DNA from: Acidobacteriota bacterium
GTDB taxonomy: Bacteria > Acidobacteriota > Blastocatellia > Pyrinomonadales > Pyrinomonadaceae
Direction of reading: 5' to 3'
Assembly (NCBI GenBank): GCA_020200095.1
Contig: JAIVJJ010000255.1
Span: forward strand, 1 to 34,902
DNA length: 34,902 bases
The notes beneath the pieces are model-generated. The model was not told the DNA's origin and made no database searches. It saw only the letters and a list, made by a program, of their open reading frames with translations. A program made the position numbers and the translations under genes. The number at the start of each line of letters is the position of its first letter. Position 1 is the first letter of the stretch. This document shows positions 6,574 through 13,694 of the stretch, piece by piece.

Positions 6574-7233
6574 TTAATTGTCTTGCATCCAGCCTCGCAG
6601 AATGGCGTAGCGGACGATGTCTATGCGACTGCGCATATTGAGTTTGCGTAGCGCGTTGGCTTTGTGCGCTTCGACGGTTTTAACGGAGATGTCCATTTTT
6701 TCGGCGATTTCATTGTTGCTGTAACCGAGCGCGATGTAGCGCAAGGACACGGATTCGCGCTCGCTTAATTGTGCGCCGCGTGTTTCGCCGCGCGGCTTTT
6801 TTGTGCTTTTTCCGACGTAGTTGCCGAAAACTTTTCCGGTCATTGCCGGGTCGAGGTAATTGCCGCCGCCTGCTACCGTGCGAATGGCGCGAAGCATCTC
6901 GCTTGCCGCGCTTTGTTTTAAGACGTAGCCGGAAACTCCGGCTTGCAGCAGTTCCTGCAGGTAGGCATCGTCGGTGTGGCGCGTTAAGGTTAAAATTTTT
7001 ATTTCGGGCGCGACTCTTTTGAGTTTTGCCGCCGCCGTCAGACCGTTTAGTTCGGGCATTGAAATATCCATCAGCAATACGTCCGGCGCGAGTTCCTGCG
7101 CCAGGCGAACGGCTTCGCGCCCGTTGCCCGCCTCGCCGCAAACCTGCATATCGTCCTGCGCGTCGACTATCAAGCGCAAACCTTCGCGCACGGATTCGTG
7201 GTCTTCGGCAATCAGGACGCGAATCTCAGACAT
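6574..7233 (-). CDS. NarL/LuxR-family response regulator
   Basis: Output half of a two-component system. The receiver domain covers residues 1-120 from MSEIRVLIAEDHESV: E10/D11 is the acidic pair, D56 in LLMDISMPELNGL is the phosphorylation site, and T and K switch residues are in ILTLTRHTDD and YVLKQSA. A GerE-type helix-turn-helix is at about residues 150-215 (LSERESVSLRYIALGYSNNE, MDISVKTVEAHKANALRKLN). The track extends 27 residues further upstream, but the ATG at 7233 has AAGGGAG about eight bases before it and matches the family start. The gene overlaps the kinase stop by 8 bp, so it is translationally coupled to its probable partner kinase. It is the likely binder of the palindromes just downstream, an untested idea. 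Confidence 0.95.
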   Translation of the reverse strand: MSEIRVLIAEDHESVREGLRLIVDAQDDMQVCGEAGNGREAVRLAQELAPDVLLMDISMPELNGLTAAAKLKRVAPEIKILTLTRHTDDAYLQELLQAGVSGYVLKQSAASEMLRAIRTVAGGGNYLDPAMTGKVFGNYVGKSTKKPRGETRGAQLSERESVSLRYIALGYSNNEIAEKMDISVKTVEAHKANALRKLNMRSRIDIVRYAILRGWMQDN

Positions 7234-10200
7234 TTTTTTTCTCCCTTTTAACAAACGAAGCCGGAACGCGAACGAAAACGGTCGTTCCCTGTTTCGGCGC
7301 AGACTCAATTTCAAATGTTCCGCCGACGAGCGCGGCGCGTTCCTCCATTCCCATCAAACCGAGACCTTTGCTTCGATTCTTCTTATCATTCGGTTTAAAG
7401 CCTTTGCCGTCGTCTTCGATGATTAGAACAATCAAATCGTCGCGCCTCTCAAGCACCACGCTCACGCTTTTGGCTTGGGCGTGTTTGTGCGTGTTATTGA
7501 GCGCTTCCTGCGTGATGCGGTAGAGATTTATTTCGACTTCGGGCGCGAGTCGCATTTTTTTTAATTTTGAAGCGTGAAACTCCACCGTCACGCCCGCGTG
7601 ATGCGACCACTCGCGCGCGTAATTTTCGAGTGAAGCAACCAAACCCAAATCGTCGAGCGCGGCGGGGCGCAATTCCCAGGCGAGAAAATCAACGTCCGCG
7701 TCAATTTGTCTGGCGATAATCTGTATTTCGTCAATTTTGCCGCAAACCTCTTCTTCCTCGCATATTTTTCTCGCGGCTTCGAGCTTTAATCTTAAAGCGG
7801 TTAATTGTTGACCGAGTTCGTCGTGTAAATCGCGGGCGATGCGTTTTCGTTCATCTTCCTGCGCGCTGATGAGTCTTTGCAGTATTTCCTTATCCTGCAC
7901 GGCTTGTTCGGCTTCGATTTTTTCGGTCTGGTCGCGGCAGATTTTGACAAAACCGTGAATTCCGCCGTTGCGAAGCGGCTGCATCACGCCGGAAGCGTAA
8001 AAACGCGAGCCGTCTTTGCGAATGTGCCAGCGCTCGTCTTCGGCTAATCCGGTCTCGGCGGCGCACTCTATTTCCATTGCGGGAACGCCCCGCGCCTGGT
8101 CTTCGGGCGTGAACAAAATCGCGCCGCTTTTACCGATGATTGCTTTTTCCTTCCAGCCGAAAGTTTTTTCCGCGCCCGTGTTCCACGAATCGACCAGATT
8201 GTCTTTGGTAACTGTAAAAATAGCGTAATCGCTTGCGCTTTCAAGCAACAAGCGCAGACGTTCTTCTGATTTCAACAAGGCTTGTTCCGACTTTTTGCGT
8301 TCGGTGATGTCAACGGAAACTCCGACAATGCCAATCATTTTTCCCTGACCGTCGTTGATCGGCGAATTAAAAACCTGTGCCGGAAATGTCGCGCCGTCGC
8401 GCCGTTTCACCTGAAACTCGCCCGACCAGCTTTTTCCCTGATTCAGCAGCGACATAATCTCTTCGGCTTGTTCAGCCATTATCTCCGGCGTCGTTATTTC
8501 ACGAACATTTCGACCCTGCACTTCGTCAGCCGTCCAGCCGTAGAGTTTTTCGGCAAACCGATTCCAGAAAATAATCTTACCGTCCATATCCGTAGCGATC
8601 ACGGATTGCTCGACCGTGTTGAGCAGATTAGCCTGAAAGCGGATGGATTCTTCCGCGCGCCTGCGCTCGGTGATAACGCGCGTCGAACCGGCGACGACTT
8701 CGACCGTTCCGTCTTCGCCGGTGACGGGCGTGAAAATATATTCGTAAAAGCCTTCCTTGCCCGCCGGATTCGTGTAAGGCGTTTCGTCCCTGACGATTTC
8801 CCCTGTTTCGACGACTTCGAGAATCTGCGCGTGCAGTTTGTCCGCCAATTCCTTCGTATACGGCAGCTCGCGGAAAGTTTTGCCCGTGATTTTTTCAATC
8901 GTGATGCCGAGCAAATCGAGCAGCGGTTTGTTGGCGTAGGTGAAACGCCCTTCCTTGTCGAAGGTGTAGGCGAAATCGGCGATTGACGAGAGCGCGGTGT
9001 CGAAAACTTTGGCTTGCCGCTCGCGGCTTTGAGCAACCTTGTTCAAAGCCTGTTCAATCTCGATGCGCTTTGTGATGTCTATAAAAGTTATGACCGTGCC
9101 GATGATTTGGTCTGTCGCCGTGCGATACGGGTAAACGCGCATCAGCAGCCATTTGCCTTTAACGTTTTCAAATTCGCGCTCGACGGTTTGCAGAGTTTTA
9201 AGAACCAGTTCGGCATCCTTTTGCAGATCGACGAAATTCATTTTCGTCGCGATGTCGGCGAGCGGGCGATTTAAATCCGAGTCAATTAAATTAAAAACCG
9301 CGCGCGCGACCGGCGTGAACATTTTGACGCGCAAGGTGCGGTCGAGAAAAATCGTGCCGATGTCGGACGAAGTCAATAGATTCTGGAAATCGCTGTTCGA
9401 TTGGGACAGCTCTTCGATTTTGAATTTCAATTCGTCATTGACCGTCAGCAATTCTTCGTTGACCGACTGCAATTCCTCGCGGCTCGTCTCGAGTTCTTCG
9501 GCGGTCGAGCGCAGCTCTTCGTTGATCGCCTTCAATTCCTCGTTCGAGGCGCGCATCTCTTCGGTCTGCGCTTCGTATTGCTCGACCGAGAAGCGAAGCT
9601 CCGTTTTCGTCCTTTCCAATTCTTCTTCGAGTTGCCGCACAATCGGCTCGTCCGACGAGATGATTTTTTCCGCCTCATTCTCCACGTCTGTCGCTTGGGA
9701 AGACTCGAACAGAACAAGCAGAAAACCGCGCGCCGTGTCGTCATCGCGCAAAATCGGACGAACATGAATGTTGATAAATTCCGTTTGTCCGTCAATCTGC
9801 GCTTTCACATTGGCGGCGCCGACGTTCGCCCGACGCTGAACTGCTTGAAACATCGCGGTTCTGAGTTCGACGCGCAGTTCCGGATGAATCAACTGAAGAA
9901 GATTTTTCGTCGGCTCGCCGCCCGCAAATTGCAGAAAGCGTCCGGCTTTCGGCGACAAATGCGCGATGTCGTAATTTTCGCTGACGACAATCGAAGGCGG
10001 CGCGTATTGCTCGAGCATCTGCTGATGAAGCTGGCTGAAAGTGATGCGTTCGAGCAGGCGATTTTCCCGTTCCTGCACGGTCATCGCCGCCGATTTCTGT
10101 TCGGCGTAAAGCATCGGCTGCCACACCTCCGGCATCGGATACTGAATTTTCGGCGTTGCCTCGCGGCTCTGGTAAATGTGCTGCTCTTTGCTGACGCTCG

Positions 10201-11629
10201 CAAACAAATTAATCGAGCCTTCAATTGATTCCGATGTTCCGAGGAAAAGAAACTTGCCCGGATTCAAAGCGAAATGAAAAGTTTTTATCGCCCGTTTCTG
10301 CGCCGTGTCGTTAAAATAAATCAGCAGATTGCGGCACGTGATAAGGTCGAGACGCGAAAACGGCGGGTCTGTCAAAGTATTGTGTTTGGTGAACAAAATC
10401 ATCTCGCGCAATTCGCGCCCGATGCGAAAGCCGTCCACGTCTTCGATAAAAAATCGCTGCAATCTTTTACGGGACACGTCCGCCGCGTCAACGAGCGTGT
10501 AAAAACCTTCGCGCGCGTGAGCAATCGCGTCTTCGTCAATGTCGGTAGCAAAAATCAGAACCGCAGGCGCATCCGTTTTTCCTTCAAGCTGCTCGGCAAA
10601 CACCATCGCCAGACTATAGGCTTCTTCGCCCGTCGCGCAGCCGGCGACCCAAATGCGAATTTCATCTTTGGCTGTTTTGTCCTGCAAAATGCGCGGCGCG
10701 ACTTCGGTTTCCAAAAACCGAAACGCTTCCTCGTCGCGGAAAAAATTCGTTACCGAAATCAGCAAATCCTTCAAAAGCGCAACGGTTTCATCCGGGTTAT
10801 CGCGCAGGTAAGCGGCGTAGTCGGCGACCGTCTGAAGATCGTGGACGATGATGCGCCGTGCGATGCGCCGCAAAACCGTCGGATGCTTGTAATTGGTAAA
10901 ATCGTGTCCGGTGCGAACTCGCAAAAGAGCGAAAATCTCGCGCAACGCCGATTGGTCTTTGTCAGGTCGAGATTCTGGAGAATCCAGAATCTCGACCTGG
11001 GTGAGATTCGTTTTGTAAGCGATAATCTTCGCCGGAATCTCCCGCACATTCAAAACCTGGTCAACCAGATTGGTCGCAATCGAATTGCGCGGCATCTCGC
11101 CAAACTCGGCTTCGCGCGGGTTCTGCACGAAAACCACGCCGCCGCGTTCCTTGACGCGCTTGAGTCCCATCGAACCGTCCGCGCCCGTCCCCGAAAGAAT
11201 GACGGAAATCGCCCGCGTTTGATGCGATTCAGCCAGCGTGCGAAAGAAAAGATCAATCGGAGCGCGGCGTTCCTCGATGTTCACATTCGGCTCGATGACG
11301 ATACACCCGTCAAGCATTTCCAAATGCTGATTCGGCGGCACGACGTAAACGTGATTCGGCACGATCTTCACCCGTTTCATCACCTGAGTTACGGGAATCT
11401 GTGCCGTCGTCTGCAAAACTTCCGCCAGGCGGCTTTCGTGGTCGGGTGAAAGATGCAGAATAACGACATAAGCCACGCCCGAATCGGCGGAGACATTTTC
11501 AAAAAATTCCTTCAGGGCTTGTATGCCGCCGGCAGACGCGCCGATGCCGACGATTAAAAAATCCTTGTCGGCAGCCTTTTGTAAAGATGCCTTTTCGGTG
11601 ACGATTTTTTTAGATTTGGATTTTTTCAT
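7226..11629 (-). CDS. CheB-CheR-PAS-histidine kinase hybrid
   Basis: A giant signalling protein (about 1467 aa from the ATG at 11629). In track numbering, a CheB methylesterase domain spans about 38-220: Ser in GIGASAGGIQAL, His in VILHLSPDH and Asp in LSGTGADGSMGL are all present. A CheR methyltransferase follows at about 245-510, with the SAM site WVAGCATGEEAYSLAM and LITCRNLLIYF. A long coiled coil of E/L repeats is at about 660-735, then four PAS domains to about 1255. The transmitter has the phospho-His in ARDLHDELGQQL (about 1284), NNTHKHA, and an ATP lid with EDDGKGF and GLGLMGMEERA, so it is HisKA_3 type. It probably phosphorylates the overlapping NarL regulator. No transmembrane segment is seen, so it is cytosolic. 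The first 15 track residues lie in the inserted repeat and are unlikely to be real. Confidence 0.93.
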   Translation of the reverse strand: MKKSKSKKIVTEKASLQKAADKDFLIVGIGASAGGIQALKEFFENVSADSGVAYVVILHLSPDHESRLAEVLQTTAQIPVTQVMKRVKIVPNHVYVVPPNQHLEMLDGCIVIEPNVNIEERRAPIDLFFRTLAESHQTRAISVILSGTGADGSMGLKRVKERGGVVFVQNPREAEFGEMPRNSIATNLVDQVLNVREIPAKIIAYKTNLTQVEILDSPESRPDKDQSALREIFALLRVRTGHDFTNYKHPTVLRRIARRIIVHDLQTVADYAAYLRDNPDETVALLKDLLISVTNFFRDEEAFRFLETEVAPRILQDKTAKDEIRIWVAGCATGEEAYSLAMVFAEQLEGKTDAPAVLIFATDIDEDAIAHAREGFYTLVDAADVSRKRLQRFFIEDVDGFRIGRELREMILFTKHNTLTDPPFSRLDLITCRNLLIYFNDTAQKRAIKTFHFALNPGKFLFLGTSESIEGSINLFASVSKEQHIYQSREATPKIQYPMPEVWQPMLYAEQKSAAMTVQERENRLLERITFSQLHQQMLEQYAPPSIVVSENYDIAHLSPKAGRFLQFAGGEPTKNLLQLIHPELRVELRTAMFQAVQRRANVGAANVKAQIDGQTEFINIHVRPILRDDDTARGFLLVLFESSQATDVENEAEKIISSDEPIVRQLEEELERTKTELRFSVEQYEAQTEEMRASNEELKAINEELRSTAEELETSREELQSVNEELLTVNDELKFKIEELSQSNSDFQNLLTSSDIGTIFLDRTLRVKMFTPVARAVFNLIDSDLNRPLADIATKMNFVDLQKDAELVLKTLQTVEREFENVKGKWLLMRVYPYRTATDQIIGTVITFIDITKRIEIEQALNKVAQSRERQAKVFDTALSSIADFAYTFDKEGRFTYANKPLLDLLGITIEKITGKTFRELPYTKELADKLHAQILEVVETGEIVRDETPYTNPAGKEGFYEYIFTPVTGEDGTVEVVAGSTRVITERRRAEESIRFQANLLNTVEQSVIATDMDGKIIFWNRFAEKLYGWTADEVQGRNVREITTPEIMAEQAEEIMSLLNQGKSWSGEFQVKRRDGATFPAQVFNSPINDGQGKMIGIVGVSVDITERKKSEQALLKSEERLRLLLESASDYAIFTVTKDNLVDSWNTGAEKTFGWKEKAIIGKSGAILFTPEDQARGVPAMEIECAAETGLAEDERWHIRKDGSRFYASGVMQPLRNGGIHGFVKICRDQTEKIEAEQAVQDKEILQRLISAQEDERKRIARDLHDELGQQLTALRLKLEAARKICEEEEVCGKIDEIQIIARQIDADVDFLAWELRPAALDDLGLVASLENYAREWSHHAGVTVEFHASKLKKMRLAPEVEINLYRITQEALNNTHKHAQAKSVSVVLERRDDLIVLIIEDDGKGFKPNDKKNRSKGLGLMGMEERAALVGGTFEIESAPKQGTTVFVRVPASFVKREKKNV
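10963..10999. repeat. perfect 17-bp inverted repeat inside the kinase coding sequence
   Basis: CAGGTCGAGATTCTGGA (10963-10979) and its exact complement (10983-10999) flank the loop GAA. The 37 bases are read in frame, giving about VEILDSPESRPD in the linker between CheB and CheR domains. A palindrome this long within coding DNA looks like an in-frame insertion of a small palindromic element. Confidence 0.75.
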
Positions 11630-11670
11630 AACGCTTTTACAAAGCTGATAACAATAGATTTTATAAATTG

Positions 11671-11690
11671 CCACTAGCTTTAGCTAGTAG
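11671..11690. repeat. REP-like hairpin, ACTAGC-TTTA-GCTAGT
   Basis: A 6-bp perfect stem with TTTA loop at the start of the left flank. Its counterpart in the right flank at 12436 has a different stem sequence with pairing kept. Confidence 0.7.
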
Positions 11691-11838
11691 ACAGCCTTGC
11701 TAGCAATCAAGCGGCTTTAGCCAAAGTTAAAATAAAAATCAATCATCCTTTTTGCTTCAGCTAAAATTAGGCTAAAGCCATCAGGAAATTTAGAAAACAC
11801 AGTTTGGCTAAAGCCTCTGCTCTTTACTCAAACTGTCC

Positions 11839-11858
11839 CACTAGCTAAAGCTAGTGGC
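11839..11858. repeat. REP-like hairpin, CCACTAGC-TAAA-GCTAGTGG
   Basis: A perfect 8-bp stem with TAAA loop, the inverted orientation of the TTTA type. It ends the left flank, so the flank carries hairpins of opposite orientation, like a BIME. Confidence 0.75.
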
Positions 11859-11894
11859 AATTGAAAAACAATTTCTTATGTCAACAGAACCAGC

Positions 11895-12338
11895 CTAATT
11901 TTCTTTATCCTTTAATTTCTGAAATCCTGCACGGCTCAAAAAATCTTCAAACTCGTCACCAAAACTTCTCTTTCGGTGATGTTCTTCTTGATTGGCAATA
12001 TATTTTCTGACGCTTTCTAAAGTCGATTCGCTTACGGAAACAGCAAAATACTCGTCCTGCCATTCAAATTTTGTTTTGCACAAACGATTTTTGTTCGTCC
12101 AAAATGAAGACTCGCCTTTTATCAACTGCATTATTTTCTCAATCGTCTGGTCTGTTCCCAAAGAAATTAAACAATGAACGTGGTCTTTATGACCGTTGAT
12201 GAAATCGAGATGTATATTTTTAGCCCGCGCGTTTTCTCGAATATGCACGAAAACTTTTTGTCTCGTTTCATCCGTTAGATATGGCTCGCGGTTTTTTGTC
12301 GACCAAACAAGATGTATCCAGACTTTGACGAACGGCAT
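11895..12338 (-). CDS. REP-associated tyrosine (Y1, IS200-like) transposase
   Basis: A 147-aa HUH single-strand transposase. The metal-binding HUH motif is H53-V-H55 in KDHVHCLISL. The catalytic tyrosine is Y113 in SVRKYIANQEEHH, and FEWQDEYFAVSVS is the typical segment before it. The N-terminus MPFVKVWIHLVWSTKNREPY matches the family start. Y1 enzymes nick and join single-stranded DNA at hairpins. The hairpin-rich flanks on both sides fit a RAYT that acts on REP-like hairpins. All catalytic residues are intact, so it may be active. It lies on the same strand as the surrounding genes. Confidence 0.93.
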   Translation of the reverse strand: MPFVKVWIHLVWSTKNREPYLTDETRQKVFVHIRENARAKNIHLDFINGHKDHVHCLISLGTDQTIEKIMQLIKGESSFWTNKNRLCKTKFEWQDEYFAVSVSESTLESVRKYIANQEEHHRKRSFGDEFEDFLSRAGFQKLKDKEN

Positions 12339-12432
12339 ATTTATTTAGGCTGAAGCCTGCTGTCTATTTTCACTTTGTCCACCGGGTTCTGTTGACATTT
12401 TGCCTTTATAAATTGTTTTTGATTTTATAAAT

Positions 12433-12454
12433 TGCCTCCAGCTTTAGCTGGAGG
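12433..12454. repeat. REP-like hairpin, CCTCCAGC-TTTA-GCTGGAGG
   Basis: A perfect 8-bp stem with TTTA loop in the right flank at about 12436-12455. Compared with the left-flank copy, stem bases have changed on both sides so that pairing is preserved, which supports selection on the structure. Confidence 0.75.
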
Positions 12455-12695
12455 TTTAGTTAGCAGCAAAGCAAGCGGCTTTAGCCCAATAGTAATAAAA
12501 AAATCAATCATCCTTTTTAGCTTTAGCTAAACTTTGGCTAAAGCCAAGAGGAAATTTCATTTTTCTCCTATTCGGCTAAAGCCTTTTGTTATATCCAATC
12601 AAAGTCCACTAGCTGAAGCTGTGGCAATTTATCAAAGCAAAATGTGAGCAGAGCCTTGCTAAAGCTAGTGGCAATTTATAAATGATTCGATTCTT

Positions 12696-13694
12696 TTAAT
12701 TGCTCTTAGCGTCTTCGGCTTGCTGCCGCAATTTGTCGCTGCTTAATTGCTCGTGCGTTAAGACGACTTGCCTGACGGCTTGCGCTCGATTCTGCGCTTC
12801 TTTCGCCTTTTTGAAAAACATCGCGGCAAGTTTCGGCTGATTGACTTCGGCAAAATGGTCGCCGATATGATTGAGCAGCATTATGCTTTCTTCGACGCCG
12901 CGCATCGCGCTGTATAAACTGTCTTCGATATTTTCCGTCACGGTCGCCAGCAAACTGTCGGCGGAATATGCGTGTCCGGTATGACACCGAAAACGGGCGC
13001 GTTTGCCGTCTGTGATTTTCAATAAAACGCCGTGACAATCCGGGCAGGTAAACGGCGTCAGCTCGCCGAATTTCATAATGCCCGACTCAAACGCGCTATC
13101 TTCTGCCGCAACGCCGATTTCAATTTTAGTTTTTTCATCGTCTTCCATATTTACCTCAGAAGTTCCCGCTGTTTTTTCTTTTGATAAGCGGACGAGAAGG
13201 TCAGCCATTTGCGCGACGGGAACGCTGTAATCGACCGCTACTTCGCGTAGGGCGTTTTCCGGCATCGAAGGAATTTCCGCGTCCGCCGGGTCTTGAACAA
13301 TCGCCAAACCGCCGTGATGTTTTATTGTCCAGAGTCCGGCAGTTCCGTCATCGAGCGCGCCGGACAAAATCACGCCGATTACCTTTGAGCCGTAAGAATA
13401 GGCGGCAGAACGAAAAAGCGGGTCAACAGCGGGACGAAAACGATTTTCCTTTGGACCTTTGGTGACGCGCACTTGCCCGTTTTCAATTAGTAAATGTCGG
13501 TCGGGCAGCGCGACGTAAATCCGGTTCGGCTCGATTGCTTCGCCGTCGCAAGCGTGCGCGGCAGAAAGAGTTTCCAAACGATTCAAAACCTGCGGCAGAA
13601 CGCTGCGAACGTCCGGCGACATATGCCAGACGACGAACAGCTCGGCTCCGAAATCTTTCGGCAAGCCGCCGACAAGTTTTTTTATCGCTTCAAA
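12696..13694 (-). pseudogene. CheB-type methylesterase remnant lacking its N-terminus and catalytic serine
   Basis: Homology to the CheB domain begins abruptly at FEAIKKLVGGLPKDF (13694), immediately after an in-frame TGA (13695-13697). The GASAGG segment with the active-site serine, which should come just before, is absent in all frames. The histidine (FVVWHMSPD) and aspartate (ILSGALDDGTAGL) sites remain. The C-terminal part is intact: a zinc-ribbon-like FTCPDCHGVLL with RFRCHTGHAYS, then an alpha-helical tail, as seen in stand-alone CheB proteins. The track start (13664) is a TTG inside the domain. The upstream 130 bases are unrelated repeat-like sequence. Translation of a serine-less product cannot be excluded, but a methylesterase it is not. 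Confidence 0.8.

Follow-up and report, generated by a model that had tools for sequence, protein, structure and literature searches.

A Y1 transposase of the TnpAY1 subclass 1.2 type beside hairpin units that its lineage probably mobilises in Pyrinomonadaceae

What is mobile at a locus where a small Y1 transposase gene lies between long palindromic repeats: the whole stretch as one self-contained element, the repeats, or both? This question is raised by the 34,902-nucleotide stretch of DNA analysed here (the window), which is contig C104 of a 4.3-Mb Acidobacteriota assembly of 464 contigs. The nearest named relatives are metagenome-assembled genomes of the family Pyrinomonadaceae. The reading favoured here, with a probability of roughly 0.72, is that the hairpin units are most likely mobilised by the lineage of the adjoining gene, which encodes a Y1 (HUH) transposase of TnpAY1 subclass 1.2 type. 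The gene is complete, as the preliminary description had stated. An intact Y1_Tnp open reading frame of 147 amino acids (Pfam Y1_Tnp, 3e-29; NCBIfam transpos_IS200, 71.9 bits) is found on the minus strand at 11895-12338, with the HUH and tyrosine motifs intact (DHVH, WQ and YIANQEEHH), and its lineage is present as a single copy in the window's genome. The insertion is located between a CheB/CheR/PAS/histidine-kinase fusion (7226-11674) and a separate CheB protein (12696-13664). Both are encoded on the minus strand, and the insertion may affect their co-transcription.

On either side of the gene lies a gene-free unit, the left at 11657-11868 and the right at 12421-12636 (both given on the plus strand). 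These correspond to the two flanks of about 210 bp that had been described as homologous, and they are indeed 76% identical in direct orientation (E = 4e-28) and share the conserved block AATCAATCATCCTTTTT. Each flank is also nearly self-complementary, so that the two match in inverted orientation too (69%). A unit is a nested palindrome: a hairpin of the CCACTAGC-TTTA-GCTAGTGG type lies at each outer end, GGCTTTAGCC and GGCTAAAGCC form a pair further in, and the centre is symmetric. In the left unit, the outer hairpins are present at 11671-11690 (CCACTAGC-TTTA-GCTAGTAG) and 11838-11857 (CCACTAGC-TAAA-GCTAGTGG), and the inner palindrome GGCTTTAGCC (11713-11722) pairs with GGCTAAAGCC (11806-11815). 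The right unit has a left hairpin with a compensated stem, CCTCCAGC-TTTA-GCTGGAGG (12435-12454), and a right hairpin that has lost one base, CCACTAGC-TGAA-GCTGTGG (12606-12624). The folding energy of the left unit is far below that of shuffled sequences (z = -7.5, with 0 of 200 shuffles as good), and that of the right region is also far below its shuffles (z = -4.7). Three copies of the outer hairpin are present in the window, where 0.01 are expected.

Perfect 25-bp inverted ends had been proposed to close a single self-contained unit. The ends themselves are real, as 11660-11684 and 12658-12682 are exact reverse complements at 25 of 25 positions. They do not delimit one element, because each unit has inverted ends and the outermost ends of any pair of units are inverted. 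The right 25-mer belongs to a half-end, a partial extra end copy at 12655-12682, which lies beyond the right unit's own hairpin and supplies the right member of the 25-bp pair. Since every unit is self-ended and the right 25-mer falls in this extra half-end, the 1-kb stretch as one transposing element is unsupported. Tandem half-ends beside units, of which 12655-12682 is an example in the window, are also observed in the upstream flanks of the loci L076, L075 and L042, and in L076 the sequence AAGCAGACGGCAATTCAT is iterated several times, as if one end had been copied repeatedly.

The proposal of one closed unit also does not agree with the position of the gene, which in the window lies between two complete gene-free units and in relatives lies inside one unit. 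In the close homologues L043, L044, L047, L053 and L178 (up to 82% protein identity), the open reading frame is found between the two halves of one unit, and the end hairpins are about 590-625 bp apart. The genomes of these homologues also hold units without the gene, in which the hairpin spacing is 130-170 bp. Read against L043, L044 and L047, the sequence at 12344-12389 (minus strand), in which a spacer separates GTGG from GGCTTCAGCC and which adjoins the ATG on its upstream side, is probably a remnant of the gene's own left end. Just outside the open reading frame, a 14-bp exact inverted repeat, ATGTCAACAGAACC, is present at 11878-11891 with its partner at 12385-12398, and the open reading frame lies between both copies. 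From this comparison, we infer that the ends belonging to the window's transposase gene have decayed and that the gene now stands between two gene-free units. Decay of the gene while the units persist is also seen elsewhere, as the close homologues L052, L053 and L063 carry one in-frame stop codon each.

Transposase-free copies of the flank were searched for and found, both in the window's genome (C95:11295-11507 and C116:3688-3864) and in many relatives. The window's genome has few copies, with four units in total. Two lone matches to the hairpin arm with two mismatches are also present in this genome (L022, G000:C26:8144-8160, and L023, G000:C87:4462-4478) and are possibly worn remnants. Evidence of movement comes from a genome of the same genus, G017, which is colinear with the window on both sides of the insertion (flanks 83% identical). 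The 1139 bp of the window correspond to 124 bp in G017, and the left unit is among the sequence that is absent there. In the other direction, a gene-free unit of about 200 bp in G017 is missing at the colinear place in the window's genome (C65:13326-13366). These two presence/absence sites demonstrate gain or loss, and one of them concerns a gene-free unit. The IS200/IS605 family is characterised by insertion beside a fixed tetranucleotide without duplication of the target. No target duplication is visible at the two sites, but their short intergenic junctions are too diverged to be read exactly. A colinear site for the C116 unit was sought in relatives, where matches were obtained on one side only or at other loci. 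The opposite pattern, a flank unique to this site or a locus shared with relatives without any mobility, was looked for and did not emerge. These observations also bear on the possibility that the hairpins, which are intergenic and strong palindromes, are mainly RNA or transcription features, such as terminators or mRNA ends, and were spread by ordinary recombination. This is quite unlikely given the presence or absence of units at colinear sites, the specificity of the stems for the gene lineage, and the inverted pairing of two hairpins that is conserved at a set spacing.

Some units have been moved by another route. The units in C95 of the window's genome, G011:C13, G012:C191 and G015:C6 are located between inverted repeats of the GGTAGTGAAC... 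type and are accompanied by 8-bp target duplications, which are exact in two cases (AATTTCTG and AAAATTTC) and agree at 7 of 8 positions in the other two (CTTGGTTC/CTTGGTTT and CAATAGAC/CAATGGAC). The same inverted repeats bound an 848-bp element in G011 that encodes an IS1 transposase (Pfam DDE_Tnp_IS1, 1.4e-21) and has an exact 8-bp duplication, AAATGTTC. The C95 unit (L040:4277-4540, G000:C95) thus lies inside an IS1-type miniature element with the duplication AATTTCTG, and the same chimera is found in G011, G012 and G015 and probably in G025. The outer repeat GTGAACTAAAAGTAATGC had been considered as an insertion target or as the outermost part of a unit; both options were rejected, as it is the inverted repeat of the IS1 element. 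Because four units lie within IS1-type repeats with 8-bp duplications, part of the population has been moved by a transposase of another family, and at least four units have evidently been moved by IS1-type transposition, as judged from these repeats and duplications. It could then be proposed that an IS1-family transposase spread the units in general, as miniature elements, and that the Y1 gene is a bystander. This proposal is highly improbable: most units have no IS1 repeat, including both units of the window, the C116 unit and the G017 unit, and IS1 repeats also enclose unrelated contents, as in G028. Spread by IS1 is refuted as a general explanation and holds for a subset of units.

The sequence of the outer stem follows the lineage of the Y1 gene. 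Eight different fully complementary outer stems are found in the family (CCACTAGC, CCTCCAGC, CCACGCTC, CCACGGCC, CCCCGCTC, CCGTCGGC, CCCCCCGT and CCCCCTGC). The two ends of one unit can also have unlike stems, each self-paired, as at 12435-12454 and 12606-12624 in the window, in C116 and in L049. Since differing end stems are each still self-paired, it is the local hairpins that are kept and not one long fold. The exact CCACTAGC hairpin is present at 23 of 32 close-lineage loci, whereas it flanks 0 of 20 distant Y1 loci in the family, most of which come from the same genomes. Taken together, these stem comparisons indicate that selection acts on the hairpin structure as such and that the hairpin is tied to the Y1 lineage. 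They also help to weigh the possibility that the palindromic units form a repeat family of their own and serve the Y1 gene as insertion targets, either in the middle of a unit or between one unit and the next. In L043, L044, L047 and L053 the gene does lie at the dyad centre of a unit, as expected of insertion into a palindrome, and units are abundant in some genomes in which the gene was not detected (75 hairpins in G025). This possibility is nevertheless unlikely, as the stem goes with the Y1 lineage and not with the genome (it is absent from all 20 distant Y1 genes of the family, which mostly have their own hairpin pairs), and the same type of protein in Flavobacterium and Verrucomicrobia is accompanied by GTAG-footed hairpins with quite different stems. 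Among the distant Y1 genes (L238-L257), whose own paired hairpins at most loci have other stems, those of L240, L250 and L251 are GTAG-footed.

The favoured reading, that the lineage of the gene mobilises the units, is also consistent with how the two are distributed over the family. The hairpin, with at most one mismatch, was detected in 60 of 119 family genomes, and a reversed control pattern gave 0-1 occurrences per genome. When the gene lineage was scored as present at E < 1e-40, the hairpin occurred in 28 of 32 genomes with the gene vs 32 of 87 without it (Fisher p = 8e-7, a value that ignores kinship). Within the genus g22, the number of hairpins does not clearly separate genomes with the gene from those without it, and the family-wide co-occurrence is therefore partly a matter of kinship. 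The 32 genomes that have the hairpin and in which the lineage gene was not detected may reflect losses, incomplete assemblies or another enzyme. The draft genomes G025 and G005, with 75 and 52 hairpin copies, respectively, are cases in which no close-lineage gene was found, and a lost gene, a missing contig or another enzyme could account for this.

Homologues of the protein were also found beyond the Pyrinomonadaceae, and nearly all of them carry the Y...Q..HH motif. Sufficient flank was available at 59 homologous loci, and at 43 of these the two 300-bp flanks clearly pair in inverted orientation; control flanks shifted by 1 kb gave such a pair at 1 of 59 (Wilcoxon p = 2.6e-10). Counts based on the hairpin score alone (>=10) separate poorly (7 near vs 2 displaced, of 118 flanks), and inverted pairing is the telling measure. 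The GT[AG]G foot, which is one criterion for RAYT/TnpAREP (5', 0-2 nt from the hairpin), was found at 0 of 32 Pyrinomonadaceae loci; it stands beside the hairpin at 20 of 22 Flavobacterium loci and 7 of 9 Verrucomicrobia loci. The designation of the locus as a mobile REP system can be kept in part. The gene-free units and the insertion missing in a same-genus genome argue for a mobile hairpin system, and the footless hairpins of this lineage are not canonical REPs. In Flavobacterium, the hairpin CTGGACTNNAGTCCAG was present in 11 of 11 genomes tested, with 2-35 copies (control 0); as in REPINs, it often forms inverted pairs with a spacing of about 80 bp. There, enzyme and repeat are matched by position only, since further Y1 genes may be present in the Flavobacterium genomes. 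The window's lineage clusters in the tree with sequences from Bacteroidota (support 100/99) and is separate from those of Flavobacterium and Verrucomicrobia. L083, from a Bacteroidetes metagenome-assembled genome, is placed among the Pyrinomonadaceae sequences with modest support, possibly through horizontal transfer or a binning error. Paired hairpins with lineage-specific stems accompany the gene in the window's lineage and in its Bacteroidota and Verrucomicrobiota relatives. It is more probable than not that the whole Y1 branch, which is of the subclass 1.2 type and was published without REPs or IS ends, mobilises hairpins in at least Acidobacteriota, Bacteroidota and Verrucomicrobiota. Every lineage would have a stem of its own, the hairpins would have a GT[AG]G foot in Flavobacterium and Verrucomicrobia and no foot in Pyrinomonadaceae, and the Pyrinomonadaceae units would also hitch-hike in IS1 miniature elements.

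It is established that Y1 HUH enzymes, such as those of IS608 and ISDra2 and TnpAREP, act on single-stranded ends that fold at the lagging strand, bind the hairpins, cut beside them and join the ends (PMC6006769). The basic element here is a nested palindrome of about 200 bp with a hairpin near each end, in inverted orientation, made of a stem, a 4-base TNNA loop and a stem. The autonomous form has the transposase gene at its centre, with about 600 bp between the end hairpins, and the gene-free form is a miniature element that consists of the two ends. In the window, the gene probably retains mere remnants of such ends and has a complete gene-free unit on either side. By analogy with the known enzymes, the end hairpins are predicted to fold on single-stranded DNA at the lagging strand, where the enzyme would bind them and cut beside them with its tyrosine. 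Joining of the ends would lead to excision and insertion of units, and gene-free units would be moved in trans. By a second route, some units within IS1-type miniature elements were moved by an IS1 transposase. For the window's enzyme, binding, cleavage, strand transfer and mobilisation are inferred from this analogy. The locus would link a Y1 group without a recorded DNA partner to a mobile hairpin family, and this provides a concrete candidate substrate, which makes the activity directly testable. By sequence the group scores as IS200/IS605, whereas its arrangement resembles that of a REP system, and its gene-in-unit and gene-free forms bear on the origin of REP systems from insertion sequences. 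In addition, one type of protein is accompanied by hairpins with and without a GT[AG]G foot, a natural experiment on foot recognition.

How this system relates to known ones depends first on the class of the protein. The name RAYT, used initially, has to be withdrawn, as the NCBIfam model REP_Tyr_transpos (NF047646) gives 29.7 bits against a cut-off of 80. The model transpos_IS200 (NF033573) is passed with 71.9 bits (cut-off 55), and by NCBIfam the window's protein classifies as an IS200/IS605-type transposase and not as a RAYT. One trait typical of RAYT/TnpAREP is present, namely a gene between two inverted hairpins with copies elsewhere in the genome. Subclass 1.2 of TnpAY1 has been described by DH[IV]H, WQ and a YIKNQKEHH-type motif (Y...Q..HH) and by a median length of 148 amino acids (Quentin et al. 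2018, PMC6006769). The motifs DHVH, WQ and YIANQEEHH and the length of 147 amino acids agree with this subclass (Table 1, PMC6006769), a match by motifs and length, with a tree that comprised the sequences found in this analysis. The subclass was recorded without REPs and generally without typical IS200 ends, mostly in Cyanobacteria and Bacteroidetes (PMC6006769). The automatic REP search of that study covered genomes that encode TnpAREP (PMC6006769), and this scope may explain why REPs were missing there vs the hairpins seen here.

Compared with subclass 1.2 as published, the likeness lies in the length (147 vs a median of 148 amino acids), the motifs DHVH, WQ and YIxNQxxHH, and the low copy number. 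The differences are the presence in Acidobacteriota, the hairpin-flanked gene and the gene-free units elsewhere in the genome. The absence of REPs or IS ends at the gene, a reported property of the subclass and not part of its definition, does not apply here, with inverted flank pairs at 43 of 59 loci. IS200/IS605 elements (subclass 1.1) are similar in a Y1 protein above the IS200/IS605 cut-off, a compact single-gene element and hairpin ends; here, however, the ends are true inverted repeats, the copy number is low, the copies are diverged and gene-free derivatives are common. TIRtrons, some of which occur in Acidobacteria, consist of a Y1 gene (TIRYT) flanked by long, partly self-complementary inverted repeats that are also found elsewhere in the genome, and it is reported that the motifs distinguishing RAYTs from IS200 transposases are also found in TIRYTs (Di Nocera et al. 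2013, PMC3733652). The gene studied here likewise lies between long inverted repeats that are unrelated to GTAG REPs and have copies elsewhere in the genome. It differs in that the protein fails the RAYT model (the TIRYT motifs being taken from the published description) and in that the gene can be located within a unit of which intact, gene-free copies exist too. REPtrons and REPINs with a RAYT (TnpAREP) share the inverted hairpin pairs, the gene-free doublets and the specificity of the hairpin for the Y1 lineage, whereas the Pyrinomonadaceae lineage has no GT[AG]G foot, an IS200/IS605-type protein and units of about 200 bp with an inner second hairpin pair. In the open-access literature, no description was found of a subclass-1.2-type enzyme with its own inverted-hairpin units of about 200 bp. 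The system is of a known kind, a Y1 enzyme with hairpin repeats, and the variant is a subclass-1.2-type enzyme that has inverted-hairpin units of its own.
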